Made by a program: the position numbers and the translations under genes
Notes under the pieces: generated by a model
Seen by the model: the letters and a program-made list of their open reading frames with translations, nothing else
Databases searched by the model: none
What the model was told of the DNA's origin: nothing
Shown here: positions 23,748 through 63,330 of the stretch, piece after piece
Layout: each line of letters opens with the position of its first letter
Position numbering within the stretch: position 1 is the first letter of the stretch
Source: Pseudomonadota bacterium
GTDB lineage: Bacteria > Pseudomonadota > Gammaproteobacteria > Steroidobacterales > JBCBZW01
Direction of reading: 5' to 3'
Assembly (NCBI GenBank): GCA_039193195.1
Contig: JBCCWS010000026.1
Location: 1-64,000 of the forward strand
Length of the DNA stretch: 64,000 nt

Positions 23748-25381
23748 GCCTCAGCACATGGTGGCAAGGCCTTCGCCCTGGCTTGGCCCTTGCGCCCGAG
23801 GTGCTTCAGGGCTCTGCGGAGGAACCGGCTGGCCTGCGCCGCGTGCCGTTGCCCGAACGCCTAGCCTTTCCCCTGCACCACCCAGGAGGGTGGCCGCTAA
23901 CGCCCGTGGTGAAAGTTGGCGATCAAGTGCGCTTCGGCGAGACCTTGGCAGAAGGCCCCGTTGGCTCCGCCCTGTCTCTGCACGCCGCCGCGGCGGGCAC
24001 CGTACTCGCGCTTGGTGAACATCCAGTGATCGATCCCGTGGTGGAGAACGCCCGCTGCATCGTGATCGCAACGCAACCCCAAGACCATGCGCCATGGCTG
24101 GCGCCGATCGCGGCGCCCGAACAAGCGCCCCCGCCCGCCCTGCGCGCGCGCGCGGGCGAAGCGGGCCTAATGGGCATGGGAGGTGCGCAGTTCCCCACCG
24201 TAACGAAGCTCGAGCTGGCCGCAGCGGCTGGCGTGCACACGCTCATCGTCAACGGTGCCGAGTGCGACCCAAGCCTCACCTGCGATCAATGGCTGATGCA
24301 GTCCTACTCCGCGCAGATCGTGCGCGGCGCCCGGCTCCTCTTGCACGCTTGCGGTGCCGAGCGCTGCGTGCTGCCCTTAGAGGATGACAAGCCCGCAGCC
24401 GTCGCTGCGATGGCAGAGGCAGTCGCCGAAGCAGGGGACCCGTGCTTGGAGGTCATCCCCGTCGCCCCGCGCTACCCCGCGGGCGGGGAACGGCAGCTCA
24501 TCGAGCGCCTGTTCGGCGTCGAGGTGCCCACCGAGACTTGGCCCGTGGACGCAGGCTACGTAAGCTTCAACGTCGCCACAGCCGCTGCCTTCGACGACGC
24601 CGTGCGTCAAGGCCAACCACTCACCGAGCGCATCATCAGCATCGCAGGCCCGGGCGTCGCCCAGCCGGGCAACGTCATCGCGCCCCTGGGCTCATCGATC
24701 GCCCATCTGATCGAACACGGTGCCGGTGGCTACCGTGAGGGGGCCAGCCGCCTAGTGGTCGGGGGCGCCATGATGGGCATCGCCATGGCGAGCGATGAGG
24801 CACCGATCACTGCGGCCAGCAACGGCCTGTTGGTCCTCACGGATGTGCGCACGCACGCTGCGCGACGGCGACAGGGCACCCTGCCCTGCATCCGCTGCGG
24901 TGACTGCGCGTCGGTCTGCCCCGCCCGTCTCCAACCACAGGAGCTTTTTCGTCAACTCCAGGCGGACGATGTACCGGGCGCCACCGCCCTGCACATCGTC
25001 GACTGCATTGAGTGCGGCAGCTGCGACACCGTATGCCCTAGCCAGATACCGCTTACCGAAGCGTTCCGTCAGTCCAAGCGTAGGCTAGCGCGAGCGCAGC
25101 GGGAGGTGCAGCGCGCTGACCGCTGGCGCAGCTTGTTCGAGCAGCGCAACGCCCGCCTCGCCACGGACGAGCGAGCGCAGGCCGCGCGTGCCTCCCGTCG
25201 GGCAGCGCAGACGGCACGACCGACGCCGGAGATTTCCAAGGAGGCGGCTGCGGTCAATCACGTCCCAGGACGCCCCCGGACCCAAGCGAACGAAGACGAT
25301 CGCCAGGCGGTCATCCGCGCCGCGGTGGAGCGAGCGCGCGCACGACGGCGCACACGCAGCACCCCGGGCACGGACTCGTAG
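23744..25381 (+). CDS. rsxC: Rnf/Rsx complex subunit C
   Basis: A peripheral flavin/Fe-S subunit (545 residues) that in Rnf takes electrons from or gives them to NADH. The N-terminal part has the barrel-like start [22 protein letters not shown], the glycine-rich [16 protein letters not shown] and NGAECDP, typical of the NuoF-like FMN/NADH fold, and then an SLBB-type region. Two 4Fe-4S motifs follow: [12 protein letters not shown] and [12 protein letters not shown]. The basic, Ala/Arg-rich tail after about residue 445 is much shorter than in E. coli RsxC, as is common outside enterics. It overlaps rsxB and is followed 6 bp later by rsxD. Confidence 0.94.
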
Positions 25382-48042: not shown

Positions 48043-50787
48043 TCAGCCGATGGGCGTGGGTTCGTCCATCGCGTAACCCTGGGCGTAGTCGACGCCGATC
48101 TCGCGCAGCATCTGGCAGATCGCATCGCTCTCTGCGAACTCTGCGATTGTGCGCTTACCCATGAGGTGGCAAATATCGTTGATGGAAACAACCATACTGC
48201 GATCAACGGTGTCGTTCTCGATGTTGCGAACGAAGCTGCCGTCGATCTTCACGTAGTCCACGGGGAGGTGGCGCAGGTGGGCGAAGGACGCCATGCCGGA
48301 GCCAAAGTCATCGAGGGCAAAGCGACACCCGCGCTGGCGTAGGCCGGTGATGAAGCGCTGCGCCTGGGCGTAGCTAGCTACCGCTGCCGTCTCGGTTATC
48401 TCGAAGCAGAACTTCTCGCCGGGCAGGTTGTGGCTATCGAACTGCTCCATCAGGAAGGGCAGGAACTTGTCGTCGGCTAGGCTTTGCGCTGATAGGTTGA
48501 TCGAGCAAACGGCGAGGGCGTCGAGCTCGTGGGGATTGGCGAGGAGCCAGCGAAAGGCACGGTTGATCACCCAACGGTCGATGCTCGGCGTGATGTTGAA
48601 GCGCTCGGCAGCTCGAATGAAGCGCGCCGGGGAGACGGGCATACCGCCGTCCTCATCGCGCAGGCGCAGCAGTAGCTCGTAGTGCTCGCCCTGTTCGGCG
48701 CGCTCGGTGAGCGGTCGAATAGACTGGCGGTAGAGGTCGAAGCGGTTCTCCTCCAAGGCCGTGGTGAGTCGCGCCACCCACTGCATCTCCCGCCGCCTCG
48801 ACATTAGGGCGACGTCGTTCACCTGGTAGGCGTGCACTCGGTCTCGGCCCGCATCCTTCGCTGCCTGGCAGGCGACATCCGCCGCCGCCAAGAGGCTGGC
48901 CACGGTTTCGCTCTCGCCGGTGATCGGCACGATCCCCACGCTGACCCTAAGGGAGTAGACGTGTTCATCCCAGCTGAAGCGAAAGCCGCGCACTTCCTCG
49001 CAAAACGCTTCCGCGGCGCGCATCGCCTCATCCAGGGTGGCTCCCTCCATGAGCACGCCAAACTGGTCGCCACCGAGGCGCGAGGGCGTGTCGCGCCAGC
49101 GAACCTTCGTCTTCAGCAAGGAGCCCAGCTGGGCGAGCAGCGCGTCGCCGGCCGTGTGCCCGGCGTTGTCGTTGATGACACGGAACTGGTCGATGTCGAT
49201 GACGCACAGGGCGAACCGCCCCTCCCCCGCGCGTACCGTATCCAAGGCCGATTCCAAGCGCTGCTCGAACTCGTGGCGATTGACGAGCCCCGTGAGCACG
49301 TCGTGGCTGGCGTGGAAGGTGAGGCGACGCTGTAGCTCGCGAGACTCGCTGACATCGTGGAAGACCAGCACGCCGCCGGACATGGCGCCGCCGCGATCGC
49401 GAATGGGCGAAGCGGTACTCTCGATAAACAGCTCCCGGTAGTCGCTAGTACGGATGAGCAGCGTGGGTCGGATCGACTTGATCGAGCGACACTGGCGAAT
49501 CGCAAGGGCGAGGGGATTCTCAAGTGGCTCGCAGGTCTCCTCGTGGTAGGTGCGGAACAGCTGGTCGATAGGTCGTCCGAGGGCGTCGTCGAGGGACCAT
49601 CCGGTCAGATCTTCGGCCACGGGGTTCAAGTACTCGACGCAGCATTCCGAGTCCGTGCGTATCACCCCATCGCCGATCGACTGAAGGGTGATGAGAACGC
49701 TCTCCTTCTCTCGCCGTAAGGCTTCCTCGTAGTGTTTGCGCTCGGTGATGTCGAGCTCCACGCCCACCAGGCGCTTGTGCCGATGCTGCCCAGTGCCGCT
49801 AGCTTTGGCGCGGCTTTGCACCCATATCCAATGGCCGTCGCGATGGCGCAGGCGATGCACGCTCTCGAACACATCCGTGCGTCCATCGAGGTGCTCCTTC
49901 AGCTTCGCCTGCACGTGGGCGTAGTCCTCGGGGTGCACCAAGTTGCGCCAGTCCGGGACGTTATCGTCCAGCTCGTCTTCGCGATAGCCGAGCATCTTCT
50001 TCCACCGCGGGGAGAAGTGCGTTTGCTTGTGCCGCTCATCGAAATCCCACACGCCATCGTTGGCCGTCAGCGCCTCCAATTCCTCGCGCTCGCGCACGGA
50101 AGCGAGCCGACGCGACACCCGCAGTCGCTCCAATCCGGCCGCCAGCGACGCGCCTAGCAGGCGCATCACCAGGCAGAAACTCGCTTGCCACCTCACCGCG
50201 TCTTCGCACGCGAGGGCAGCGAAACCGATAGGTCCCTCGCTGCCGTGCAGGCTGATCAACACGCAGGCCCGTACGTTGGCTTGGGACAACCAATCAGCTT
50301 CCCGCTCGGTGCCCTCGGTCGGCACCAGACAGTCGTCCATTTGCAGGTAGCCACCGGCGATCGCCAGCTGACGGTGAAGCTCGGGCATGGCCTCGAGCTT
50401 GCGCCCGAGGAGGTGGGCAGGCTTGATACGGGATCGAGGCTCGACGGACTCGAGTGCGGTCGCGAAGGTCTCCCCACGCGCGTCCAGCAATCCCACGAAC
50501 ATCGCGTCCGTATCGACAGCTTTGCGCACGTCTTCGAAGACGCGGGTGATCGCCGGGGTCAGCTCTTCGGAGTCGATCTGGGACAAGGCGATCGACGCTT
50601 GTGCAAACACGGGTGCGATCCCCTGTTCGCCCCCGGCGGGCACTTCGGGTGCGCGCGGGTTATTGCGCACGGGGAACAGGCGCTTGGCCTCCGTGCCTCC
50701 GCGACCCGCACGGCCGGCGGATCCTTCGCCTTCTCGTTCCGTGCTTTCCACCCTCAGCTCCCTCCGCTGTCGGTGCTTAGGTGCCAC
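48043..50787 (-). CDS. GAF-PAS-PAS-GGDEF-EAL c-di-GMP signalling protein
   Basis: A 914-residue soluble protein combining a cyclic-di-GMP synthase and phosphodiesterase. Order: GAF-like sensor (about 55-220), PAS (about 240-355) and a second PAS (about 365-480), both in the style of redox/FAD or small-molecule sensors, GGDEF (about 495-650) and EAL (about 665-905). The GGDEF signature reads GGDQF (572-576), a change that often but not always lowers cyclase activity. The EAL domain is complete: Glu704 in ELLLR, DDFGSGMASF, DYVKIDGSF and AQGYAMDEP. No membrane helix is seen. So phosphodiesterase output is more likely than synthesis. Convergent with nadC. Confidence 0.93.
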   Translation of the reverse strand: MAPKHRQRRELRVESTEREGEGSAGRAGRGGTEAKRLFPVRNNPRAPEVPAGGEQGIAPVFAQASIALSQIDSEELTPAITRVFEDVRKAVDTDAMFVGLLDARGETFATALESVEPRSRIKPAHLLGRKLEAMPELHRQLAIAGGYLQMDDCLVPTEGTEREADWLSQANVRACVLISLHGSEGPIGFAALACEDAVRWQASFCLVMRLLGASLAAGLERLRVSRRLASVREREELEALTANDGVWDFDERHKQTHFSPRWKKMLGYREDELDDNVPDWRNLVHPEDYAHVQAKLKEHLDGRTDVFESVHRLRHRDGHWIWVQSRAKASGTGQHRHKRLVGVELDITERKHYEEALRREKESVLITLQSIGDGVIRTDSECCVEYLNPVAEDLTGWSLDDALGRPIDQLFRTYHEETCEPLENPLALAIRQCRSIKSIRPTLLIRTSDYRELFIESTASPIRDRGGAMSGGVLVFHDVSESRELQRRLTFHASHDVLTGLVNRHEFEQRLESALDTVRAGEGRFALCVIDIDQFRVINDNAGHTAGDALLAQLGSLLKTKVRWRDTPSRLGGDQFGVLMEGATLDEAMRAAEAFCEEVRGFRFSWDEHVYSLRVSVGIVPITGESETVASLLAAADVACQAAKDAGRDRVHAYQVNDVALMSRRREMQWVARLTTALEENRFDLYRQSIRPLTERAEQGEHYELLLRLRDEDGGMPVSPARFIRAAERFNITPSIDRWVINRAFRWLLANPHELDALAVCSINLSAQSLADDKFLPFLMEQFDSHNLPGEKFCFEITETAAVASYAQAQRFITGLRQRGCRFALDDFGSGMASFAHLRHLPVDYVKIDGSFVRNIENDTVDRSMVVSINDICHLMGKRTIAEFAESDAICQMLREIGVDYAQGYAMDEPTPIG

Positions 50788-51908: not shown

Positions 51909-52151
51909 GAATTCTCCAATGGGTTGGGTTGAGGCGGGTTGAGGTCCGCCTTTGGGAAAATCGAGCTTCCTAGGGCGCAGCGCGCTGGCACACCCAGGAT
52001 TCACTTGAGATCGCGGGCGCGCAAGCGGCCGCCCGGAGCCGCCCATAAGCCGAGGCCGCGCACAGTACCCGCTTGTGACAAGGGACGCCACAGTACGCTT
52101 CTCACCAGCGTTCCCGGGCGGCCCCTCACATATTAATTTTCGGACACGCGC

Positions 52152-52185
52152 CTGAAATAGTACTGAAATATTACTTTGTTCTAAT
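52152..52185 (+). promoter_or_regulatory. Pho-box-like direct repeat and -10 element
   Basis: In the 416-bp gap before the TonB receptor gene, an AT-rich island carries CTGAAATAGTACTGAAAT (52152-52169): two identical 7-mers with a 4-bp spacer, giving the 11-bp phasing of a PhoB site. A third, weaker copy CTTTGTT follows in phase at 52174-52180. Each 7-mer matches the PhoB half-site CTGTCAT at 5 of 7 positions. TCTAAT (52180-52185) fits a -10 box, and there is no recognisable -35, as in activator-dependent promoters. This leaves a leader of about 130 nt. PhoB control is an inference from spacing. Confidence 0.45.
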
Positions 52186-52324
52186 CCGCCGCGTCGCAGC
52201 GGATCGCGGCCGGCAGTACGTCTCTTCCGGTACCTAAATCTGGCCTCCCCGCTGGTCCATGTGTCGGTGCGTCGCTCAAGGAAAACGACGCCTCGACCGA
52301 TGAACCGCAACGTTAGAGGCCCCC

Positions 52325-55300
52325 ATGATCAAGTCGTTCCTCAGCCGTCCGGCGATGTGTGTCCAGGTGCTGGCACTCGCCGCGATCTCGCCCGCCTTCG
52401 CGGACGACGAACTCGCGGTGTACACCTTCAATAACCGCCAGCCGGGCGTCGGGCTGACCCTCGTCCTCGACGGTCAGGAGACCACCACCGTCGGCAAGGA
52501 TGGTGCGGCCTTCTTCGATCTTTCCGAGGGCGTGCACAGCCTGCAGGTACGCGACGGCGAACAGAGCCTCTACAGCTTCCGCTTCACCACCGCCCGAGGC
52601 CAGCAGGTGGACGCCCTGATCACTTTGGGCGACGACACGACTCACCGGGTAGAGACCTACTCCCCGTCCGAAAGTGCCGAAGACAAGCGTGACGCCCCGA
52701 CCGGTACCCTCAGCGGCACGGTCAGCGCCGCCGCCGGTGGCCTCGCCGGCGCCAGCATCGTGGTGGAAGACACGGGCGAGCTGCTGCTGGCGGACGCCGA
52801 CGGCCGCTTCAACGTGACCCTGCCCCGCGGCGAGTACCGCTTGACCGCCTACCACCCGACCGACGATCGCACCGCCTCGCGCACGGTTCGCGTGGTGTCG
52901 GGGGTGACGCGCGGCGTGGGCCTCACCATCCGCAACCAGTCGGCGCTGGATGTGCAGGCGCCCACCCTGAGCGGCATCGAGGAAGTGGTGGTCGTGGCCA
53001 CCTTCGACCCGAACGCCTTTGAAGCTTCAGAGCGCGACACGAACCAGATCATCGACACCCTCGACATTGAGACCCTCTCGCGCTTCGCGGACACCAACGT
53101 GGCCGCCTCTGTGGTGCGCGTGCCGTCCGTGACCGTGCAGGACAACCGCTTCGTATTTATTCGAGGCCTAGGCGATCGCTACATCAGCACCACCCTGAAC
53201 GGCGCCACCATGCCGAGTACGGATCCGGCCAAGCGCACCGTGCCGCTGGATCTGTTCCCGAGCAACTTCGTTAACCAGCTTGACATCCGCAAGACCTTCA
53301 TCCCGGGCATGCCCGGCGAGAGTACGGGCGGCAACCTGGTGATCAACACCCGCACCTTCCCCACGGAACGCTCGGGGCAGTTGCAGGTGCGCATGAGCGC
53401 CACGCCCGGCGTCACCGGCAACGATGTCTTCGCGGATCCCACGGACGGCGACTTCGACTACTTCGGCTGGGACGCGGGTGCCCGTGAGGCCCCGGTGGCT
53501 GTGGAAGCGATCACCCAAGCGCTCAACATCGGCACGGTGACGGACTCCAACACCGGCGGCGTCTTCCAGATCAACGACACGGTGGAGCGCGAGCTGCGTC
53601 GGGTCGGCGGCCTACTGATCAGCGACAACCTCGACCTCGAGCTCACCAACGCCGCGCCGGACACGCGCATCGGCGCCAACTACGGTGACGTCTTCGACAT
53701 CGGCCGTGTCGAGCTCGGCATCTTCGCCGCCGGCAACTTCTCCAACCAGTGGAGCCAGCGCAACGACGGCGTGAGCAACACCTTCACGCCCTCCGGCGAC
53801 GACCTGAACCGGTTCCGCTTCCAGGAATACACCAACAGCATCGACGCCAACGCTCTGCTTTCAGTGGGTCTGAACGTCGGCCAGCACACGATCGAACTCA
53901 ATAGCATCGCCTCGCGTGCAACGGAGAACCGCGTCGTGCGTACGGTCGGCCAGGAAGGTGACGAGTTCCAGGCTCGCTACCGCAACACCATCGATTGGGT
54001 GGAGCGCCAGTTCCTGTCCCAGCAGATCGCCGGTAACCACTCGCTGGTCGAGAGCGGCGCCGTCTACCTGGATTGGCAGTTCACCGCCAGCCAGGCGCGC
54101 CGCGACGCTCCTGATCGCCGCGAGATCACCTTCAGCGCGGATCAGTTCCAGACCGACCCGCAGTCGTTGCTCGATGGCTTCGATCTCGACCGCCTGAACG
54201 ACGATCAGGACGTGGAGCTGAATGGCTTCTTCCTCGAGTCGAACGCGCTGGTTCGCCGCTACGACGAACTGACTGATAACAACTTCGACTTCTCCACGTC
54301 CCTGGGCTGGGATCTGATCGACAACGGCAACAGCTTTGCCAGCCTGCAGATCGGCGGCCAGATCATCTACCGCGAGCGTGACTCCGACTCGGACACCTAC
54401 GGCTTCAACCTAAACCAGCAGAACGTCGAGAACCTGATCACCGAAGAGATCCTGGTCAGCGACATCATCACGGAAGAGACGATCACCGGTGACCCCGCGA
54501 CGGGCTTCACCTTCCTCGATCGCACCCTCGCCAGCGACAGCTACGAGGCGGAGCTCAACTACAACAGCATCTTCGCGACCTACGATCACACCTTTAACGA
54601 CCGCTTCCAGGTGGTGATCGGCGCGCGCTACGAAATGTACGACCAGACCACCGACACCTTCTCCCTGCAGGGCGCCGGCGAGGCCGTACAGTCGCGCATC
54701 GACGAGGGGTCGTTCCTGCCGAGCTTCAGCTTCAACTGGTTCGCCACCGAGGCCCACCAGTTCCGCTTCGCGATCTCGCAGACCGTCGCACGACCAGACT
54801 TCAAGGAATCGGCCAACGCCACCTTCTACGATACGGAGTTCGACTTCCGCGTGCGCGGCAATCCGAACCTCGAGATCTCGGACATCCTCAACGTCGACGC
54901 CCGCTGGGAGTGGTACCCGAACGATCGCGATAGCTTGTCCGTCGCGGCCTTCTACAAGGACTTCGACAACCCCATTGAGCGCGTCGTGCAGCAGGCCTCA
55001 GGCACCGCGGGCAACTCGCGCACCTTCTCAAACGCTGACTCCGCGTTCCTCTATGGCGCGGAGATCGAAGCGCGTAAGGAGTTCCTGATCAGCGACGACT
55101 ACGCGCGCTCCTTCTTCCTCGCGCTGAACGCCAGCTACATCGAATCGGAAGTTCAACTGCCGACGCGCACGCGCGCCCTGCAGGGTCAACCCCAGTACAC
55201 CAGCAACCTGGTGCTCGGCTTCGACCACGCGGGCTACGGCCAGCAGGTCACGATCCTCATCAACCAAAACGGCGAGGCGATCCGCGACGTCGGCATCCTC

Positions 55301-55498
55301 GGCAACCCCGACGTGATCGAAGAGCCGCGCCTTGACATCAACCTCGTGTACCGCTGGGACATCAGCGATAGCTTCACCTTCCGCGCCAAGGCGAGCAACT
55401 TGCTCGACGATGAGGTGGAGTTCACGCAGGGCGGCAGAACATTCTTCGCTTACAAGCGGGGAGTCGAATTCCAGCTCGGGGCAGACTGGAACTTCTAA
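52325..55498 (+). CDS. TonB-dependent outer membrane receptor
   Basis: A 1057-residue outer-membrane transporter energised by TonB. It starts with a signal peptide (VLALAAISPAFA), then two small beta domains: one near 30-105 and a carboxypeptidase-regulatory-like domain at about 127-200 (LSGTVSAAAGGLAGASIVVEDTGE). IEEVVVVATF near 220 serves as the TonB-box region, followed by the plug domain with VRVPSVTVQDNRFVFIRGLGDRYISTTLNGATMPSTDPAKR and STGGNLVINTRTFP. The barrel ends in Phe (LGADWNF), the BAM signal. The substrate is not known. The lipoprotein gene follows 65 bp later, and both probably share the 52152-52185 promoter. Confidence 0.92.
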   Translation: MIKSFLSRPAMCVQVLALAAISPAFADDELAVYTFNNRQPGVGLTLVLDGQETTTVGKDGAAFFDLSEGVHSLQVRDGEQSLYSFRFTTARGQQVDALITLGDDTTHRVETYSPSESAEDKRDAPTGTLSGTVSAAAGGLAGASIVVEDTGELLLADADGRFNVTLPRGEYRLTAYHPTDDRTASRTVRVVSGVTRGVGLTIRNQSALDVQAPTLSGIEEVVVVATFDPNAFEASERDTNQIIDTLDIETLSRFADTNVAASVVRVPSVTVQDNRFVFIRGLGDRYISTTLNGATMPSTDPAKRTVPLDLFPSNFVNQLDIRKTFIPGMPGESTGGNLVINTRTFPTERSGQLQVRMSATPGVTGNDVFADPTDGDFDYFGWDAGAREAPVAVEAITQALNIGTVTDSNTGGVFQINDTVERELRRVGGLLISDNLDLELTNAAPDTRIGANYGDVFDIGRVELGIFAAGNFSNQWSQRNDGVSNTFTPSGDDLNRFRFQEYTNSIDANALLSVGLNVGQHTIELNSIASRATENRVVRTVGQEGDEFQARYRNTIDWVERQFLSQQIAGNHSLVESGAVYLDWQFTASQARRDAPDRREITFSADQFQTDPQSLLDGFDLDRLNDDQDVELNGFFLESNALVRRYDELTDNNFDFSTSLGWDLIDNGNSFASLQIGGQIIYRERDSDSDTYGFNLNQQNVENLITEEILVSDIITEETITGDPATGFTFLDRTLASDSYEAELNYNSIFATYDHTFNDRFQVVIGARYEMYDQTTDTFSLQGAGEAVQSRIDEGSFLPSFSFNWFATEAHQFRFAISQTVARPDFKESANATFYDTEFDFRVRGNPNLEISDILNVDARWEWYPNDRDSLSVAAFYKDFDNPIERVVQQASGTAGNSRTFSNADSAFLYGAEIEARKEFLISDDYARSFFLALNASYIESEVQLPTRTRALQGQPQYTSNLVLGFDHAGYGQQVTILINQNGEAIRDVGILGNPDVIEEPRLDINLVYRWDISDSFTFRAKASNLLDDEVEFTQGGRTFFAYKRGVEFQLGADWNF

Positions 55499-55563
55499 TT
55501 ACCGAACGGCCCTATTGACCTTACGACTTCTCTTGCCACTACCACACTATTGGGAAAGGACTC

Positions 55564-57051
55564 ATGGCACGTAAACTAATGCTCATGGCGGCGCTGCTGC
55601 CTTCTCTTGCGGCTCTGTATGGCTGCGCCGAGGGCGACCTCGCCACTATCACCATTGACGCGCCCACTGAGAACGTCACCAACAACACCGACGGCGGTGG
55701 CGATTCGGGCGACGCGGGCGATACGGGCGGTCAGCCCGGCGACGTGTCCACCAACTGCCCGGCCTTCTCCGGCGCCAAGCCGATCAACGCTGACGGCAAC
55801 GACGTCTGCGCCCTGCCCGCGGTGATCTCCGAGAGCCAGACCCTCACGCCCGACGTGATCTGGCTGATGGAAGGCACGGTCACCGTCGGTAACGGCAACA
55901 ACGAGATCGACGAGAACGGTGAGCTCACCAACGGCAACCCGCTGCTGAACGTCGTGCTGACGATCGAACCTGGCACCCAAATTCAGGGCGCCACCGGCAC
56001 CTTCGCCAACATGATCATCACCCGCGGCAGCCGCATCGAAGCGGTCGGCACGGAAGCGGATCCGATCATCTTCAGCTCCGACGATGCCGGCCTCGACGGC
56101 TCCGGTGAGTGGGGCGGTCTGATCATGCACGGCTTCGGTGAGCACAACCAGTGCGACACCGTGCAGATGATCTGCAACATCGACTCCGAGGGTGAGTCCG
56201 GCTTTGCCGGCGGCTTCGTCGCCGACGACAACAGCGGCACCCTGTCCTACGTGATCGTGGCCGAGGGCGGCTTCGAGTTCTCCCCGGGTAACGAGATCAA
56301 CGGCATCTCCCTGGTCGGCGTCGGCTCCGGCACCACCATGGATCACATCCAGGTGCAGGGTAACTCGGACGATGGCATCGAGTTCTACGGGGGTGCCGTA
56401 AACCTCAAGTACGGCGTGTTCACCGACAACCTCGATGACTCAGTCGACTGGGACGAAGGCTTCGTCGGCAACCTGCAGTTCATCATCGTGCGTCAGTCCG
56501 AGAACAGCTTCGGTAACGCCTTCGAGATGGACACCCAGGGCAACCCGCTGCCCCTGTCCAAGCCGACCCTCGCCAACGTGACCGTGATCGGCCACGGCGT
56601 GGAAGGCGATGAGACCGAGATGCTCGTGTTCAAGGCCGGCTCTGGCGGCTTCTTCCACAACACCGTGCTGACCGTCGACGATGCCAACGGCACCATCGAC
56701 AACTGCCTGCTGATCGAGGGTGCAGACTCCGAAGCACTCATCAATACGGCGCTCGTGGTCAACAACTGGGTGGCAGACTGCCAGGGCGGCGCTGGTGTAG
56801 GCGTGATCGGCAACGACACGCTGGACGCCACCACCATCTCGGCGGTAGAAGCGCAGCTCGACATGAACCTGGCCTCGCAGGCACCGGAAGCGCTGCTCGC
56901 CGAGCCCCTCGACTGGGTGGCGATCAACGGCATCTTCTCCGAGAGCCTGGCCGACGTGGACTTCCTGGAAGCGACCGACTTCATCGGCGCGGTGAACCCG
57001 GACGGCAGCGACGTCTGGTGGGCCACCTGGACCCTCGACGGCACGCTCTAA
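55564..57051 (+). CDS. Surface lipoprotein, receptor partner
   Basis: A 495-residue predicted lipoprotein with the lipobox LYGC (Cys21) and a Gly/Asp-rich linker (about 40-60). The body looks like a right-handed parallel beta-helix: VVLTIEPGTQIQGATGTFANMIITRGSRIEAVGTEADPIIFSSD, GSGEWGGLIMHGFG, MDHIQVQGNSDDGIEFYGGAVNLKYGVFTDNLDDSVDWDEGF. It is very acidic, with many Asp-Asn and Asp-Gly pairs that could bind calcium. It follows the TonB receptor and ends at a strong terminator, so the pair is like a SusCD-type arrangement: a receptor with an outer lipoprotein that captures substrate (inference). Confidence 0.8.
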   Translation: MARKLMLMAALLPSLAALYGCAEGDLATITIDAPTENVTNNTDGGGDSGDAGDTGGQPGDVSTNCPAFSGAKPINADGNDVCALPAVISESQTLTPDVIWLMEGTVTVGNGNNEIDENGELTNGNPLLNVVLTIEPGTQIQGATGTFANMIITRGSRIEAVGTEADPIIFSSDDAGLDGSGEWGGLIMHGFGEHNQCDTVQMICNIDSEGESGFAGGFVADDNSGTLSYVIVAEGGFEFSPGNEINGISLVGVGSGTTMDHIQVQGNSDDGIEFYGGAVNLKYGVFTDNLDDSVDWDEGFVGNLQFIIVRQSENSFGNAFEMDTQGNPLPLSKPTLANVTVIGHGVEGDETEMLVFKAGSGGFFHNTVLTVDDANGTIDNCLLIEGADSEALINTALVVNNWVADCQGGAGVGVIGNDTLDATTISAVEAQLDMNLASQAPEALLAEPLDWVAINGIFSESLADVDFLEATDFIGAVNPDGSDVWWATWTLDGTL

Positions 57052-57084: not shown

Positions 57085-57109
57085 GGGCCGCCCACTCGGG
57101 CGGCCCTTT
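57085..57109 (+). terminator. Intrinsic terminator after the lipoprotein gene
   Basis: A perfect 9-bp stem GGGCCGCCC/GGGCGGCCC (57085-57093 and 57098-57106) with an ACTC loop, followed by TTTG. It is 33 bp after the lipoprotein stop and ends the receptor-lipoprotein transcript. Confidence 0.8.
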
Positions 57110-57236: not shown

Positions 57237-57551
57237 ATGAAAGCCAACCGACGCCTCAGCCCCACCCAGGAAGACGCCGAGGAACAGGCGCTCTACGCCG
57301 CCATCCTGACTTTGCGCAACGCGCAGGAATGCCAGCGCTTCTTCCGGGATCTGTGCACCCCAGCGGAGCTGCAGGCACTGAAAGACCGCTGGCACGTGGT
57401 GGGCCTGCTTGAAGACGGCCAGGCCTACCGCACCATCCAGGCGCAGACAGGTGTGAGCGTCACCACCATCGGCCGCATCCGCCGCTTCCTAGACGAGGGC
57501 TTCGGCGGCTACCGGATCGCGCGAGATCGCATGCAAGGAAATACCGAGTGA
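57237..57551 (+). CDS. TrpR-related (YerC/YecD family) regulator
   Basis: A 104-residue helix-turn-helix repressor of the TrpR clan. It is all-helical, with QALYAAILTLRNAQECQRFFRDLCTPAELQALKDRW, then the DNA-binding region VVGLLEDGQAYRTIQAQTGVSVTTIGRIRRFLDEG. Family members lie ahead of his operons in several gammaproteobacteria and are thought to sense histidine; that is recalled knowledge, not tested here. A perfect palindrome lies 13 bp upstream, and no ribosome-binding site precedes the ATG (GACCTCCCCTATG), so it may be translated from a nearly leaderless mRNA. It overlaps hisG by 4 bp. Confidence 0.9.
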   Translation: MKANRRLSPTQEDAEEQALYAAILTLRNAQECQRFFRDLCTPAELQALKDRWHVVGLLEDGQAYRTIQAQTGVSVTTIGRIRRFLDEGFGGYRIARDRMQGNTE

Positions 57552-58465
57552 GCACTACCCCTACGCCCCCGAGCAGCGAACGCCTGCGCATCGCGCTGCA
57601 GAAGTCGGGCCGACTGGCCGACAACTCGCGCGAGCTGTTAGTGCGCTGCGGTCTGCGGATCAGCGCGAACCGCGACGGCTTGGTCTGGACAGGCGAGAAC
57701 CTCCCCATCGACCTCATGTTGGTGCGGGACGATGACATCCCCACGCTGGTGGCCGACGGTCACTGCGACGTCGGCATCGTGGGGCAGAACATTGCCCGCG
57801 AGATCGCCTGCGAGCGTCAGCAAGAGGGCGAGGCCGGGGGCTACGAAGAGCTCCTGCCGCTGGACTTCGGCTATTGCCGCCTGAGCCTTGCCAAGCCGGT
57901 CGAAGCTCCCTTCAAAACGTTGAGTGACCTCGCCGGCAAGCGTATCGCCACCAGCTACCCCGCCTCCCTACAGGCCCACCTGAACGAGCACGGAGTGGAT
58001 GCGCAGGTCGTACTACTCTCAGGCTCCGTCGAGCTAGCGCCTCGCTTAGGTAAGGCAGATGTGATCTGCGACCTAGTCTCCACGGGGGCGACGCTCGCTG
58101 CCAACGACCTAGTGGAAATGAAAACTTTACTCGAGAGTAAGGCAACGCTGATTCGAGCGACACGCCCCTTGAGCGAAAGCTCGGAGACCCTCCTAGCGCG
58201 CTTACTCAAGCGCATGCAGGGTGTTCTGCGCGGCCGCGAGAGCCGCTACATCATGCTCCACGCACCGCGCGATCGCCTGGCCGAAGTGCACGAGCTTCTG
58301 CCGGGTGCCGAGGCCCCGACCGTGCTCACCCTGGATGGCCGACCGGACCGGGTCGCGGTCCATGCGGTGTGCAATGAACAGGTGTTCTGGGAGACCTTGG
58401 AAGCTCTCAAGGACGTTGGTGCCAGCGCCATTCTGGTGCTACCGGTGGAGAAGATGCTGGCGTGA
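57548..58465 (+). CDS. hisG: ATP phosphoribosyltransferase, long form
   Basis: First, feedback-inhibited enzyme of histidine synthesis, joining ATP and PRPP. The 305-residue product is the long form: catalytic region RLRIALQKSGRLADNSRELLVRCGL, DDIPTLVADGHCDVGIVGQNI, the PRPP loop DLVSTGATLAANDLVEM, and a C-terminal regulatory domain (about 230-305, VLTLDGRPDRVAVHAV...ILVLPVEKML) that binds histidine. GTG start overlapping the regulator gene. hisD follows after about 33 bp, the largest gap in this operon. Confidence 0.96.
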   Translation: MSTTPTPPSSERLRIALQKSGRLADNSRELLVRCGLRISANRDGLVWTGENLPIDLMLVRDDDIPTLVADGHCDVGIVGQNIAREIACERQQEGEAGGYEELLPLDFGYCRLSLAKPVEAPFKTLSDLAGKRIATSYPASLQAHLNEHGVDAQVVLLSGSVELAPRLGKADVICDLVSTGATLAANDLVEMKTLLESKATLIRATRPLSESSETLLARLLKRMQGVLRGRESRYIMLHAPRDRLAEVHELLPGAEAPTVLTLDGRPDRVAVHAVCNEQVFWETLEALKDVGASAILVLPVEKMLA

Positions 58466-58498
58466 GCCCGCGGGCTCCACCGCTTGGCGAGAATAGCT

Positions 58499-59809
58499 GT
58501 GAAGAAGATTGTTTGGTCGAAACTGTCGCCCGACGCACAGAAGGAGGCCCTGCGCCGCCCGGCGCAACGCCTCGGCGCCGCCTTCCAAGCGCAGGTCGAG
58601 AACATCGTCAATCGCGTGCGCGCGGATGGCGACTCTGCCCTACTCGCGCTGACCAAGGAACTCGACGACGTCAACCTCGAGAGCCTGCAGGTCAGTAGCG
58701 CAGAGCGCGAGGAAGCCGTAGCCGCTCTAAGTCCTGCCGAGCATGAGGCGCTGACCATCGCCCGCGCCAACCTGCAGCGCTTCCACCAAGCTCAGGTGCC
58801 GGGCGAGCCGCTGGCGATCGACACCCAACCCGGCGTGCGCTGTGAGCGTATTCGCCGGCCCATCGAGGCCGTCGGTCTTTACGTTCCTGCGGGCAGCGCG
58901 CCCTTGCCCTCTACGGTGTTGATGCTCGGTGTGCCCTCGGCGATCGCCGGCTGCCCCGTGCGGGTGCTCTGCGCACCGCCGCAAGCGGATGGACGTATGG
59001 CGCCGTCCATCATCGCGGCGGCAGCCCTGTGCGGCATCGATCTCCTGTTCAAGGTCGGCGGCGCGCAAGCTATCGCCGCGATGGCCTTCGGCACCGAGAC
59101 CATTCCTTCCACGGATAAGCTCTACGGCCCAGGAAACGCCTGGGTCACCGCCGCCAAGCGCATGGTGAGTACCGACGATGCCGGCGCCGCCATCGACATG
59201 CCCGCCGGCCCGTCGGAGGTGCTGGTCATCGCCGACGCGCAAGCCGATCCAGCCTTCGTGGCGTCGGATCTGCTGTCTCAGGCCGAACACGGCCCCGATT
59301 CCCAAGCCCTCTTGGTAACGCCAAGCACAACGCTCGCCGACGCCGTTGCCGACGCCGTTGGCCAGCAGCTGCAAGTGCTCACGCGGGCGGCGATCACCGG
59401 CCAGGCGATCGAGCACGCGCGCCTGATCGTGGTCGACGACCTGGCCGAGGCCGTGCAGGTCAGCAACCAGTACGCGCCCGAGCACCTGATCATCCAGACC
59501 GCTCAGCCACGAGCCCTCCTGCCGCAGATCACTGCCGCGGGCTCGGTATTCCTCGGCGCGTGGTCGCCGGAAGCGGTCGGGGACTACTGCAGCGGCACAA
59601 ACCACGTCTTGCCCACCTACGGCCACGCGCGCGCCTGGAGCGGCCTATCCGTCGACGCCTTCAGCAAGAGCGTCACCGTGCAGGAGCTCACGGCGCAGGG
59701 CCTGCGAGCGCTCGCTCCCACGGTCCTGACGATGACCAAGATGGAAGGTCTCGACGCCCATGGCTGGGCCGTACGCCATCGGCTAAACCGCCTAGGGCCT
59801 GCCCAATGA
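58499..59809 (+). CDS. hisD: Histidinol dehydrogenase
   Basis: Zinc-dependent NAD enzyme making histidine from histidinol in two oxidations. The product (436 residues from the GTG at 58499, 441 from the TTG at 58484) has VGLYVPAGSAPLPSTVLMLGVPS, the AGGAQAIAA-type GGAQAIAAMAFGTETIP, DMPAGPSEVLVIAD and SQAEHGPDSQALLV, with the catalytic Glu/His, and YCSGTNHVLPTYGHARAWSGLS near the end. Neither start has a strong ribosome-binding site; I prefer the GTG. The stop overlaps the hisC start (ATGA). Confidence 0.95.
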   Translation: MKKIVWSKLSPDAQKEALRRPAQRLGAAFQAQVENIVNRVRADGDSALLALTKELDDVNLESLQVSSAEREEAVAALSPAEHEALTIARANLQRFHQAQVPGEPLAIDTQPGVRCERIRRPIEAVGLYVPAGSAPLPSTVLMLGVPSAIAGCPVRVLCAPPQADGRMAPSIIAAAALCGIDLLFKVGGAQAIAAMAFGTETIPSTDKLYGPGNAWVTAAKRMVSTDDAGAAIDMPAGPSEVLVIADAQADPAFVASDLLSQAEHGPDSQALLVTPSTTLADAVADAVGQQLQVLTRAAITGQAIEHARLIVVDDLAEAVQVSNQYAPEHLIIQTAQPRALLPQITAAGSVFLGAWSPEAVGDYCSGTNHVLPTYGHARAWSGLSVDAFSKSVTVQELTAQGLRALAPTVLTMTKMEGLDAHGWAVRHRLNRLGPAQ

Positions 59810-60879
59810 GCAAGGCTGATGTGCTCGAACTCGTACGCGATGACCTAAGGCAGCTAAAGGGCTATCAAGCAGCTGCCCCGGACTTCGAACGCCTGCGCTT
59901 GCACGCCAACGAGAGCCCATGGGACGACACGCTCGAGGTCGATCAGCGCCAGATCAACCGCTACCCGCCAGTACGCGCTCTGGACCTAGAAGCGCGCCTG
60001 GCTGAGGTGTACGGTGTGAGCTCGGAGCAACTCCTCGTCACACGCGGCAGCGATGACGGTATCGACCTGCTGGTGCGCACCTTTTGCGCCGCGGGCCAGG
60101 ACGCGGTGCTCGTAACGCCCCCCACCTTCGGCATGTACGCCGTTGCCGCTCGCCTGCAAAACGCGCAGTGCGTGGAGGTCCCCCTTAGGGCAGACCAGGG
60201 GTGGCGCGTCGATGAATCGGCGATCTTGAACGCGGTGGACGCACACCCCGTGCGCCTGCTCTTCCTGTGTTCCCCGAACAACCCCACCGGCAGCACCCTG
60301 GAGCGAGATGCGGTGCTGCGCCTATGTCAGGCCCTGGGCCGCAAGGCGGCTGTCGTCGTCGACCAAGCGTACGGCGAGTTCACTGGTGAGGCTGGATTCG
60401 CAGCGGATCTCGATACGCAGCCCAACCTGATCGTCCTACGCACGCTCTCAAAGGCCCATGGGCTCGCCGGGGTCCGCTGTGGGGCCTTGCTGGCCGATCC
60501 CGCACTGATCTCCCTACTCGCCACCCTCGCGCCCCCTTACGCCACGCCCTCACCCGTGATCGGCGCCGTGCTCCAGCGCCTCAGCGATGAAGCACTCGCG
60601 CAGACGGACCGGCGACTGCAGGTGATCGCCGAGCAGCGCGCACGTCTGCGCAAGGTGCTGGACATGCTGCCCTACGTACACAAGGTCTGGCCTAGCGAGG
60701 CGAACTTCCTCCTCGCACAGGTCGACGACGCTGCGCGACTGGTAGCCGATTGCTACGAACAGGGCGTGCTCCTGCGCAGCTTTCGTGACAAGCCTGGTCT
60801 CGGCGAGGCCGTGCGGATAAGCGTAGGCACGCCGGCACAAACGGACCGACTCATCGCGATCCTGGAGAGCATCGCGTGA
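59806..60879 (+). CDS. hisC: Histidinol-phosphate aminotransferase
   Basis: PLP enzyme transferring an amino group from glutamate to imidazole acetol phosphate. The 357-residue protein has RLHANESPW, NRYPPVRALDLEARLAEVYG, LVTRGSDDGIDLLVRTFC, CSPNNPTGS and the PLP lysine in LRTLSKAHGLAGVRCG. The frame extends far upstream inside hisD, but the ATG at 59806 overlapping the hisD stop gives the family start. Overlaps hisB by 4 bp. Confidence 0.96.
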   Translation: MSKADVLELVRDDLRQLKGYQAAAPDFERLRLHANESPWDDTLEVDQRQINRYPPVRALDLEARLAEVYGVSSEQLLVTRGSDDGIDLLVRTFCAAGQDAVLVTPPTFGMYAVAARLQNAQCVEVPLRADQGWRVDESAILNAVDAHPVRLLFLCSPNNPTGSTLERDAVLRLCQALGRKAAVVVDQAYGEFTGEAGFAADLDTQPNLIVLRTLSKAHGLAGVRCGALLADPALISLLATLAPPYATPSPVIGAVLQRLSDEALAQTDRRLQVIAEQRARLRKVLDMLPYVHKVWPSEANFLLAQVDDAARLVADCYEQGVLLRSFRDKPGLGEAVRISVGTPAQTDRLIAILESIA

Positions 60880-61952
60880 GTGGCCTAAGGGTATTGTTCA
60901 TCGATCGCGACGGCACCCTTATCGAAGAGCCCGAGGACAAGCAGATCGACCGCCTGGACAAGCTGCGCCTGGTGCCGGGCGTCGTGCCAGCACTGCTGCG
61001 CCTTCGGGCAGCGGGCTACCGCTTTGTGATGGTGAGCAACCAAGACGGCCTCGGCACGGCGTGCTTCCCTCAGGCCGATTTCGACGCTCCGCACGCCTTC
61101 CTCCTCGACCTGCTCGCCAGCCAGGGCATCCACTTCGATGAGGTCTTCATCTGCCCACACCTCCCTGACGCCGCCTGCGATTGCCGCAAGCCGGCCACGG
61201 GCTTGCTCACCAAGTACCTGGCGGGCAACACCCTAGACCTCGAGCATTGCGCCGTGATCGGCGATCGGCAAACGGACATCACCTTGGCGGAGCGCCTCGG
61301 CGTGAAGGGCCTGCGCGTACGTGTGGGCACAGACCCGGGCCTTAGCTGGGAAGAGATCACCGCCGAGCTCACAAGCCAGCGCCGCGCCGCGCAACACAGG
61401 CGCAGCACCAACGAGACAGACATTCACTGCGAGGTAGACCTCGATGAACCTAACCTAACGGTTATCGCCACGGGTCTAGGATTCCTCGATCACATGCTCG
61501 AACAACTGGCCCGTCACGGCGGCTTCAGCCTGAAGCTACGCTGCGATGGCGATCTGCACATAGACGAGCACCACACGCTCGAGGATGTGGCCCTCACCTT
61601 AGGCGAGTGCATACGCGAAGCCCTGGGCACGAAGATTGGCATCGCGCGCTATGGATTCGTGCTGCCGATGGACGAGGCCCAAGCGCAGATCGCCATTGAT
61701 CTGAGCGGGCGCGCGCACTGCGAGTGCGAAATGGACCTGCGGCGCGAACACGTAGGTCAGCTGCCGACCGAGCTCGTTCCTCACTTCTTCTCATCCCTGT
61801 CACAGGCCCTCGGAGCCGCCATTCACGTGCGCGTGAACGGCGACAACGATCACCACGTGATCGAGGCCGCGTTCAAGGGACTCGGGCGCGCGCTACGCCA
61901 GGCCGTGCGGCTGGAGGATCAGGCGCTGCCAAGCACGAAGGGCGTCCTGTGA
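60876..61952 (+). CDS. hisB: Bifunctional histidinol-phosphatase / IGP dehydratase
   Basis: Two enzymes in 358 residues. The N-terminal HAD phosphatase (about 1-165) has FIDRDGTLIEEPEDKQIDRLDKL, SNQDGLGT and a zinc loop with CPHLPDAACDCRKP. The C-terminal imidazoleglycerol-phosphate dehydratase (about 170-358) has GLGFLDHMLEQLARHGGF, DEHHTLEDVALTLG and HHVIEAAFKGLGRALR, with the manganese-binding histidines. The fusion is characteristic of the gammaproteobacterial HisB. GTG start overlapping hisC; the stop overlaps the hisH start. Confidence 0.96.
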   Translation: MSGLRVLFIDRDGTLIEEPEDKQIDRLDKLRLVPGVVPALLRLRAAGYRFVMVSNQDGLGTACFPQADFDAPHAFLLDLLASQGIHFDEVFICPHLPDAACDCRKPATGLLTKYLAGNTLDLEHCAVIGDRQTDITLAERLGVKGLRVRVGTDPGLSWEEITAELTSQRRAAQHRRSTNETDIHCEVDLDEPNLTVIATGLGFLDHMLEQLARHGGFSLKLRCDGDLHIDEHHTLEDVALTLGECIREALGTKIGIARYGFVLPMDEAQAQIAIDLSGRAHCECEMDLRREHVGQLPTELVPHFFSSLSQALGAAIHVRVNGDNDHHVIEAAFKGLGRALRQAVRLEDQALPSTKGVL

Positions 61953-62587
61953 GCGAGCCCAAGGGCCAACGAGAGGTCGTGGTGATCGACAGCGGCGGCG
62001 CCAACCTGGCGTCTGTTCGCTTCGCCCTCGAGCGTTTGCAGTGGAACCCTGTGGTGAGCACGGACCCCGCCCAGATCCGCGCAGCAGAGCGCGTTATTCT
62101 GCCGGGCGTGGGGGCTGCGAGCGATGTGATGGCGCGCCTTCGCAGTGGCGGCTTAGATCAGGTAGTGGCATCGCTCACCCAACCGGTATTGGGGATATGC
62201 GTCGGCTTGCAGGTGCTCTACCAACACTGCGCCGAAGGCCAGGTCGACGGCCTTGGGTTGCTGGATGGGGTGGTCGAACACCTGCCGAGCGCTCCGCAGC
62301 TCAGCGTGCCGCAGATGGGCTGGAATCGAATTGCAGCACTCGCTGACCACGCCCTATTCGACGGCTTGGATCTAACTGAGGCGCACTTCTACTTCGTGCA
62401 CAGCTACGCGGCAGCGCCCGGCGCACAGACGCTGGCCACGGCGTCCTACGGCAACACGTTCACCGCCGTCGCCGGTTGCCGCAACCTGCTCGCAACCCAA
62501 TTTCACCCAGAGCGCTCGGCGCGCTGGGGCCATCGCTTACTCAAGAACTTTCTGACCACACCGCCGGAGAACTTGCTGTGCGAATGA
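61949..62587 (+). CDS. hisH: Imidazole glycerol phosphate synthase, glutaminase subunit
   Basis: The class I glutaminase that feeds ammonia to HisF. The 212-residue protein has VVVIDSGGANLASVRFALERL, ERVILPGVGAASDVM, the nucleophile region LGICVGLQVLYQ (Cys), PQMGWNRI and the catalytic FHPERSARWGHRLLKNF (His, Glu). The frame is open upstream inside hisB; the GTG at 61949 overlapping the hisB stop gives the family start. Its TGA overlaps the hisA ATG. Confidence 0.95.
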   Translation: MSEPKGQREVVVIDSGGANLASVRFALERLQWNPVVSTDPAQIRAAERVILPGVGAASDVMARLRSGGLDQVVASLTQPVLGICVGLQVLYQHCAEGQVDGLGLLDGVVEHLPSAPQLSVPQMGWNRIAALADHALFDGLDLTEAHFYFVHSYAAAPGAQTLATASYGNTFTAVAGCRNLLATQFHPERSARWGHRLLKNFLTTPPENLLCE

Positions 62588-63330
62588 TCCCCGCCATCGA
62601 CCTGATCGACGGGCGCTGCGTACGCCTGCGCGAGGGGAACTTCGAGGCTCAAACTGCCTACGATGCCGACCCCATCGAACTTGCGCTCGAGTACGCCGAG
62701 GCCGGCGCGCATTGGCTTCATGTGGTGGATCTCGATGGCGCGCGCGATGGGAAACGGCGCAACGCCTCGCTCATCACCCGCCTGGTGGAGGCTGTTCAGG
62801 AGCGGGCGGACATGCAGGTGCAACTGGGCGGCGGCATACGCAACGCCGACGCGATCGCCAGCGCCCTAGGGATGGGCGTTGGTCGCGTCGTGGTGGGGAG
62901 CGCCGTGTGCGCTAACCCCGGGCTACTGGTCGATTGGCTGGACACCTTCAATCCGGCGAGCGTCGTGCTCGCCGTGGACGTGCGGATCAGCGATGACGAC
63001 GGCCGCCCCTGGCCGTGGGTGCACGGCTGGACGCAACGGGCCGACATCGACTTATGGGCCTTGCTAGGTGCAGCCTCGAGCGCCGGCCTGCGCCAGGTCC
63101 TGTGCACGGACATCAGTCGTGATGGCACCCTCGCTGGTCCCAACATAGCGCTCTACGAAGCCCTTCGGGACCGCTACCCAGGGCTGTGCATTCAAAGCTC
63201 AGGCGGCGTCGGCAGCGTGGACGACCTGCGTGCCCTGGAGCTTGTCCGGGTCGACGCCGCCATCACGGGTAAGGCGCTTCTGGACGGGCGGATCAGCCTG
63301 GATCAAGCACGTCCTTGGCTACGCGGATGA
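62584..63330 (+). CDS. hisA: ProFAR isomerase
   Basis: A TIM-barrel isomerase that opens the ribose ring of ProFAR to give PRFAR. The 248-residue product has [21 protein letters not shown] with the first catalytic Asp, [41 protein letters not shown] and [14 protein letters not shown] with the second catalytic Asp. A GTG at 62578 would add two residues, but the ATG at 62584, within the hisH stop, matches the family N-terminus. Overlaps hisF by 4 bp. Confidence 0.96.

Follow-up and report, generated by a model that had tools for sequence, protein, structure and literature searches.

On the forward strand of a 64,000-nt stretch of DNA (the window; positions 1–64,000 of contig JBCCWS010000026.1, from a 6.7-Mb genome that we call G000), positions 52126–57051 hold a TonB-dependent receptor gene and a lipoprotein gene behind a Pho-box-like promoter. 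On balance we think it probable that these form an operon of two genes under PhoB control, of the ElpS/Cc0171 type, in which the lipoprotein would capture or process material and the receptor would import it by way of TonB. PhoB-type regulation of the pair is well supported at the level of sequence: a sequence-only reading had proposed such a promoter, and the proposal gains from the matrix rank and geometry of the site, its conservation within the genus, boxes across the family, PhoB and pst neighbours, and published induction of related lipoproteins. PhoB presumably binds at the window site, and the gene pairing suggests that the two proteins act jointly; they may import a cargo and may do so as a SusCD-like complex.

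The promoter lies in an AT-rich island (52126–52185), which has a lower G+C content than any other 60-mer of the window (0.317 vs. 0.651 overall). It contains two identical CTGAAAT heptamers at 11-bp phase (52152–52158 and 52163–52169) and a −10 element, TCTAAT (52180–52185), whose first letter lies 17 nt beyond that of the second heptamer. Island, repeat, and −10 had all been read in these places before. The third, partial copy of that reading survives in another position: the downstream CTTTGTT (52174–52180) has only 3/7 letters of CTGAAAT and is probably not a real unit, while a better third unit, the degenerate CGGACAC (52141–52147; 4/7), lies 11 bp before the first CTGAAAT. Pairs of heptamers at 11-bp phase were scored with a matrix for which the Pho boxes of seven Escherichia coli K-12 genes supplied 16 heptamers; these heptamers and the −10 weights were hand-picked, and the E. 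coli boxes were located via the consensus. The CTGAAAT pair (52152/52163; 13.9 bits) ranks first among 127,964 positions on both strands of the window and the overlapping upstream pair (52141/52152; 10.4 bits) ranks second, followed by the next unrelated position at 10.0 bits; the downstream pair (52163/52174; 6.7 bits) ranks 16. With a rough −10 term added, the two leading site pairs score 18.4 and 13.8, compared with 9.6 for the highest-scoring unrelated site. Of 5000 dinucleotide shuffles of the 330-bp region upstream, 6 attain the site score. The pattern CTGAAAT-N10-TNTAAT with up to one mismatch, written post hoc after seeing the site, occurs once in the window vs. 0.01 expected, and CTGWMAT-N4-CTGWMAT has a single match in the whole genome, at this site (reversed control, 0). 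The box sits in the −35 place with the −10 at offset 17, and no sigma-70 −35/−10 pair was found. CTGAAA was considered as a sigma-70 −35 element and rejected, since its spacers to TCTAAT are 22 and 11 rather than 16–18. In these respects the site resembles the PhoB promoters of E. coli pstS and phoA, which share the 11-bp-phased heptamers and, with the −10 elements usually assigned to them, a last heptamer that begins 17 nt before the −10; it differs in reading CTGAAAT where E. coli has what we take to be its Pho heptamer, CTGTCAT. Judged from its letters, the Pho-box match of the site exceeds chance.

The genome carries a Pho system of its own. The PhoB model TIGR02154 has 16 full-length matches in G000, one of them over the cut-off (347.7 vs. 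296.2 bits), and the neighbours of this single phoB are phoR, phoU, pstS, pstC, pstA, and pstB (Pfam domains; named by domain and position), all on another contig than the receptor-lipoprotein pair. The PstS model TIGR00975 found no match in G000; pstS was identified by its position between phoU and pstC and by PF12849 at 141 bits. Upstream of pstS we found CTGAAACaccaTCGTCAC followed by TATAAT (9.3 bits), the top site of its strand in a 16.6-kb stretch. The only PhoX detected in the genome (397 bits) is preceded by an array, CTGTCTT-GATC-CTGACTT-TTTT-CTGAAAT, first noticed among the matches to a pattern with two mismatches. A promoter-level pattern (heptamers plus a spaced T....T, at most one mismatch), devised after these sites were known, has three matches in G000, four in the same-genus genome G001, and none in the control; the G000 matches precede the receptor-lipoprotein pair, pstS, and a PhoB-type response regulator. 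This last promoter is at 23874–23907 of G000 contig 20 and at 4841–4874 of G001 contig 90, and the regulator behind it on contig 20 (Pfam Trans_reg_C) has only 38% identity to PhoB.

Conservation does not extend far above the box. In G001, 6/214 alignment columns differ between a point 40 bp before the box and the ATG, and the 200 bp above that promoter block are only 66–69% identical; from the aligned letters, the place where conservation ends is the informative point of this comparison. In G015, whose receptor is only 47% identical, CTGAAAT is retained 17 nt before TGTAAT.

Receptor-lipoprotein pairs of this family are widespread and in some lineages adjoin phosphate-sensing genes. Among 59 genomes including G000, the lipoprotein search found matches in 16, and a profile search of species genomes found at least 584 encoding places, the best 80 of which were kept as named loci; with 15 loci of relatives they make up the 95 loci counted here (two paralogues without a receptor, L047 and L048, were left out). 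The best 80 of at least 584 include Halieaceae metagenome-assembled genomes (MAGs; at most 64% identity in the best segment), Alteromonas, Rheinheimera, Idiomarina, Colwellia, and Pseudoalteromonas, as well as Alphaproteobacteria, Myxococcota, Bacteroidota, and Poribacteria. A receptor match occurs anywhere in the fetched stretch for 72/80 named and 14/15 relatives' loci, and no more than 4 kb from the lipoprotein, on its strand, for 64/80 and 14/15, respectively (78/95); the lipoprotein gene comes first in 48 and the receptor gene in 30. PhoB (at least 54% identity to the PhoB of G000) or pst/phoU genes lie in the flanks of 17/80 named and 4/15 relatives' loci, compared with a chance expectation of ~0.4 of 80 that is rough (0.5% each, up to ~20 kb per locus) and treats related species as independent, which they are not. 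The curated PhoB model was applied to 12 loci, the remaining PhoB calls resting on the identity threshold, and was passed in 8 (L034, L038, L092, L100, L121, L145, L166, and L167); L144, L151, and L155 fell under the 296.2-bit cut-off (293.8, 214.9, and 235.6 bits), and L159 gave no match at the 1e-85 limit. In the Halieaceae MAG locus L092, which is outside the 17, a PhoB over the cut-off (49% identity) follows a lipoprotein 61% identical to that of the window. Four pairs in other lineages adjoin PhoB-like regulators with 40–42% identity to PhoB (L044 9077–9769, L045 6825–7562, L046 7890–8573, and L115 10595–11263), with no PhoR match within these loci.

Pho-like boxes also precede the homologous loci. 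We could score 90/95 (L096, L139, L144, L149, and L161 gave no scorable upstream), 75 of them with a same-strand receptor within 4 kb and 15 without, and took the upstreams of 451 other genes in these loci as controls. The median score is 11.7 bits for the loci vs. 4.2 for the controls (P = 5e-23, rank test, uncorrected for relatedness), and 32/90 loci lie above the control 95% point (26/75 when a receptor in reach is required). Among the 11 top controls that we inspected, several belong to the Pho type or are linked to it: a PstS-type protein (L146) and GspC (L169) by Pfam, a PhoB recognised from its sequence, and DUF3450 genes in three cases (DUF3450 checked in L133). In 58/90 loci the box outscores shuffles at P = 0.05; the 400-bp stretch shuffled was placed around a best box chosen beforehand, a design that makes small P values likelier. 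For the 47 boxes scoring at least 11.5 bits (40 with a receptor in reach), chosen on heptamers alone, we tried 24 offsets for the −10 element: offset 17 gives the best −10 in 17/47, and the next most frequent offset, 28 (one 11-bp unit further), accounts for 7. Some boxes come close to the E. coli form, for example TTGTCAC/CTGTCAT in L110. The sequence-only reading had made its case depend on a repeat upstream of homologous pairs, and the family does carry Pho-like boxes with a preferred −10 offset.

In several Gammaproteobacteria, genes for TonB energization lie near the pair. A DUF3450-ExbB-ExbB-ExbD-TonB cluster, checked by Pfam, lies downstream of the pair in L133 (14389–18174), and similar clusters were recognised by sequence reading in L108 (13169–18284), L123 (14848–18586), and L097 (11154–15597; no DUF3450 or TonB read there). 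A Pho-like box precedes DUF3450 in L133, L108, and L123. The DUF3450 gene of G000, on contig 11 and away from the pair, has no convincing Pho box (5.6 bits).

The first gene of the pair (52325–55498) encodes a TonB-dependent receptor of 1057 amino acids, with a plug and a beta-barrel according to Pfam, the predicted model, and fold matches (strands were not counted). The Pfam barrel (90 bits) and Plug (36 bits) are both over their cut-offs, an N-terminal CarboxypepD_reg match is just under, and the NCBIfam model TIGR01782, which has a cut-off of 310, gives only 228 bits. The AlphaFold model (predicted local distance difference test, pLDDT, 85.5) has two N-terminal beta-sandwich domains (~29–112 and ~126–202), a linker with low pLDDT at 205–231, the plug, and the barrel, and its best Foldseek rows are TonB-dependent receptors or transporters by title. 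In the low-confidence linker before the plug, EEVVVVA (residues 219–225; 52979–52999) was picked out by eye as a probable TonB box. Pfam found no signalling domain in the receptor.

The second gene (55564–57051) encodes a 495-amino-acid lipoprotein predicted to be a right-handed beta-helix, a fold unlike that of SusD, as the sequence-only reading had supposed from its letters. It carries L-Y-G-C, which we take to be the lipobox (55615–55626), with the modified Cys21 invariant in an 11-row alignment. No match at E 0.1 was found in Pfam or NCBIfam, and PDB sequences gave no usable match (one antibody chain at E 0.12). Its AlphaFold model (pLDDT 83.5, predicted template-modelling score 0.84, 52 sequences) aligns with right-handed beta-helices, including a phage tailspike (Z 22.4), the AlgE4 epimerase (Z 21.5), a NosDFYL chain (Z 20.9), and the pectate lyase Pel9A (Z 18.4). 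Foldseek alone found no PDB match at E 0.001 (best 3e-3, template-modelling scores ~0.2), so the beta-helix assignment stands on the second structural aligner (best Z 22.4) and on the model. This likeness to beta-helix proteins reveals no function. Across the 52 relatives, E244, D269, D270, E273, D291, D292, D295, and E321 are invariant and D323 is nearly so; these residues are ~22–30 apart, about one helix turn, and may stack on successive rungs. Double-length lipoproteins are common among relatives, with tandem double matches in L034 (8072–11011), L035 (5806–8766), L036 (7931–10894), and L037 (7113–10013) and reading frames of at least 880 amino acids in many named loci. Lipoprotein paralogues occur on G000 contig 3 (266110–266622; L048 8045–9388) and G001 contig 128 (L047); neither has a receptor match in the fetched stretch, and their upstreams (6.2 and 4.8 bits, respectively) contain no good Pho box.

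The receptor-lipoprotein kind is already known, and ElpS/Cc0171 and Fjoh_0545/0546 are the closest described, likened here by description. In Caulobacter crescentus, ElpS (Cc0170) is reported as a surface-anchored lipoprotein that is produced specifically under phosphate starvation and encoded beside the receptor Cc0171 and a type II secretion system (T2SS), with a functional link suggested by the authors (PMC2996285). For Flavobacterium johnsoniae, another paper reports that phosphate depletion induces the receptor Fjoh_0545 and the lipoprotein Fjoh_0546 (FII), both in the phoBR operon, assigns IPR011050 to FII, and gives lipoproteins FI–FIII as 31–36% identical to a low-phosphate-inducible Caulobacter lipoprotein (PMC8115612). 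The Caulobacter PhoB regulon of 47 genes, as described in a third, takes in the T2SS and various TonB-dependent receptors (PMC11208175). Like ElpS/Cc0171, the window pair combines adjacent receptor and lipoprotein genes, a ~50-kDa lipoprotein, and a phosphate theme, and relatives such as L169 (Phenylobacterium) show the elpS-type lipoprotein-receptor-T2SS order; unlike it, the window pair has the receptor first and the lipoprotein second behind one promoter. The window lipoprotein is of the same family as loci with the elpS-type order, and this widespread family probably includes ElpS, as far as the description of ElpS shows. IPR011050 is, we take it, the pectin-lyase-type fold. The Fjoh_0545/0546 pair (PUSIV) is likewise a receptor-lipoprotein pair, induced by phosphate depletion in Flavobacterium, but it belongs to Bacteroidota and has phoBR adjacent, whereas here phoBR is on another contig. 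With SusCD/PusCD the window pair shares the order of receptor gene then lipoprotein gene, and a lid-and-barrel model is conceivable, but its lipoprotein is a predicted beta-helix. Membership of SusCD was rejected: the SusC/RagA model TIGR04056 gives 18.6 bits vs. a cut-off of 368.25, and the lipoprotein combines a lack of Pfam matches at E 0.1 with a beta-helix model. In the open-access literature, covered by titles and abstract beginnings, we found no Pho-box-controlled pair of this kind in Gammaproteobacteria and saw no family-wide Pho promoter described. The order lipoprotein-receptor-gspD-E-F occurs in only 6/95 loci (L036, L114, L142, L156, L164, and L169; five named, one relative), so T2SS adjacency goes with the Caulobacter locus and not with the pair as such. 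No T2SS genes were recognised beside the window pair on reading its open reading frames, a reading that involved no scan of the window with T2SS models.

These observations suggest how the operon may work. When phosphate is short, phosphorylated PhoB would bind the 11-bp-phased heptamers at 52141–52169 in place of a −35 element and recruit RNA polymerase to TCTAAT. The cell would then make the TonB-dependent receptor with its two N-terminal beta-sandwich domains and a lipid-anchored right-handed beta-helix on the outer surface, where the lipoprotein would capture, or help to cleave, phosphorus-containing material, and the receptor would import the product with TonB energy. Since the pair is found in many bacteria, and beside phosphate-sensing genes in some lineages, it probably serves to scavenge phosphorus when this is scarce.

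A number of results weigh against this reading. Within G000, the phoX array sites (11.1 and 11.5 bits) are only fourth and third on their strand in a 16-kb stretch and G001 retains the array only in part (5.2 bits), while the upstream of phoB has no box among its strand's five best sites. Across the family, only 1/90 loci exceeds the control 99% point, and shuffle P values are 0.05 or more in 32/90 (above 0.1 in L094 and L099); all eight Poribacteria loci score 7.0 bits or less, and the Myxococcota locus L155 and several others also score low. In G001 the coding sequence, mostly 92–100% identical per 100 bp, is about as conserved as the promoter block, so the block alone proves little beyond its upper boundary. 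The best box pair of G015 does not outdo its shuffles (P = 0.105).

Two rivals concern what the repeat is. We judge it highly improbable that it is a chance repeat, with an ordinary promoter behind it that serves a receptor pair for carbohydrate or iron. Iron or glycans are the substrates of many TonB-dependent receptors. The window has six pairs of identical 7-mers at +11, so the repeat itself is unremarkable, and the heptamer pattern with two mismatches shows no clear genome-wide excess (63 vs. 57 in the control); chance, however, leaves aside the lack of a sigma-70 −35/−10 pair, the family boxes with their −10 offset, and the Pho gene neighbourhood. The box could instead be bound by another regulator of the OmpR/PhoB family with an 11-bp-phased site, in which case the signal would not be phosphate. 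The 16 full-length matches to the PhoB model, 15 of them under the cut-off, supply candidates, and the heptamers agree with the E. coli heptamer in only 5/7 letters. Yet the pair is the top site of the window under a PhoB matrix, relatives have boxes such as that of L110, PhoB and pst genes lie near the pair in several loci, and phosphate shortage is reported to induce related lipoproteins (PMC8115612, PMC2996285); we hold a different regulator to be unlikely.

The strongest rival accepts phosphate control and disputes the uptake pair: in line with what was proposed for ElpS, the lipoprotein would assist phosphatases or secreted enzymes, either at the surface or after release, while the receptor would work separately, as a sensor or something else. 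We consider this a serious possibility, though not a probable one. The ElpS paper ties the lipoprotein to alkaline phosphatase activity, describes Cc0171 as constitutive by reverse transcription PCR, and reports that deletion of Cc0171 left ElpS production intact (PMC2996285); the first two suit an accessory, and the last two lean against a simple uptake pair induced together. The six loci with gspD-E-F behind the receptor point the same way, as do the 17/95 loci that have no same-strand receptor within 4 kb, some of them perhaps cut by contig ends. An accessory role sits less well with the receptor found beside the lipoprotein in 78/95 loci, with the one recognisable promoter before both genes in the window, and with a receptor in which Pfam finds no signalling domain.

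A bolder extension of the uptake-pair reading, which we offer tentatively and regard as doubtful taken whole, is that such pairs are a third design of lipoprotein-lidded TonB importer. A beta-helix lid would stand in for SusD, and the design would be dedicated to phosphorus, widespread, and under PhoB across Gammaproteobacteria and beyond. Some lineages would add a Pho-controlled DUF3450-ExbB-ExbD-TonB power unit, and the acidic rungs (E244, D269/D270/E273, D291/D292/D295, and E321/D323) might hold cargo via a metal such as calcium. To our knowledge, apart from porins and SusCD-type systems, little has been learned about how phosphorus scavenging proceeds at the outer membrane. A pair with a Pho-type promoter, lying beside phoBR/pst genes in several lineages, is plainly a candidate for bringing in phosphorus compounds by way of TonB; in the window it takes a simple form, two genes and a single recognisable switch, and the poorly understood ElpS family gains a wider context.

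The remaining features of the locus frame the operon. A putative 5′ untranslated region (52192–52324), placed by an inferred transcript start, is nearly identical in G001; it folds no better than shuffles (z −0.74), and a known riboswitch or RNA family was rejected for want of an Rfam match. Behind the lipoprotein gene, a GGGCCGCCC/GGGCGGCCC hairpin followed by TTT (57085–57109) may mark the operon end by sequence reading, and the promoter/terminator scoring applied made no terminator call there. Upstream, past a divergent FKBP-type isomerase, 48043–50787 encodes a large PAS-GGDEF-EAL protein. Downstream, 57237–63330 holds a his-like run that reads, by sequence, as hisG, hisD, hisC, hisB, hisH, and hisA, together with a Trp-repressor-family gene (PF01371, 86 bits) that shares 4 bases with the first gene of the run.

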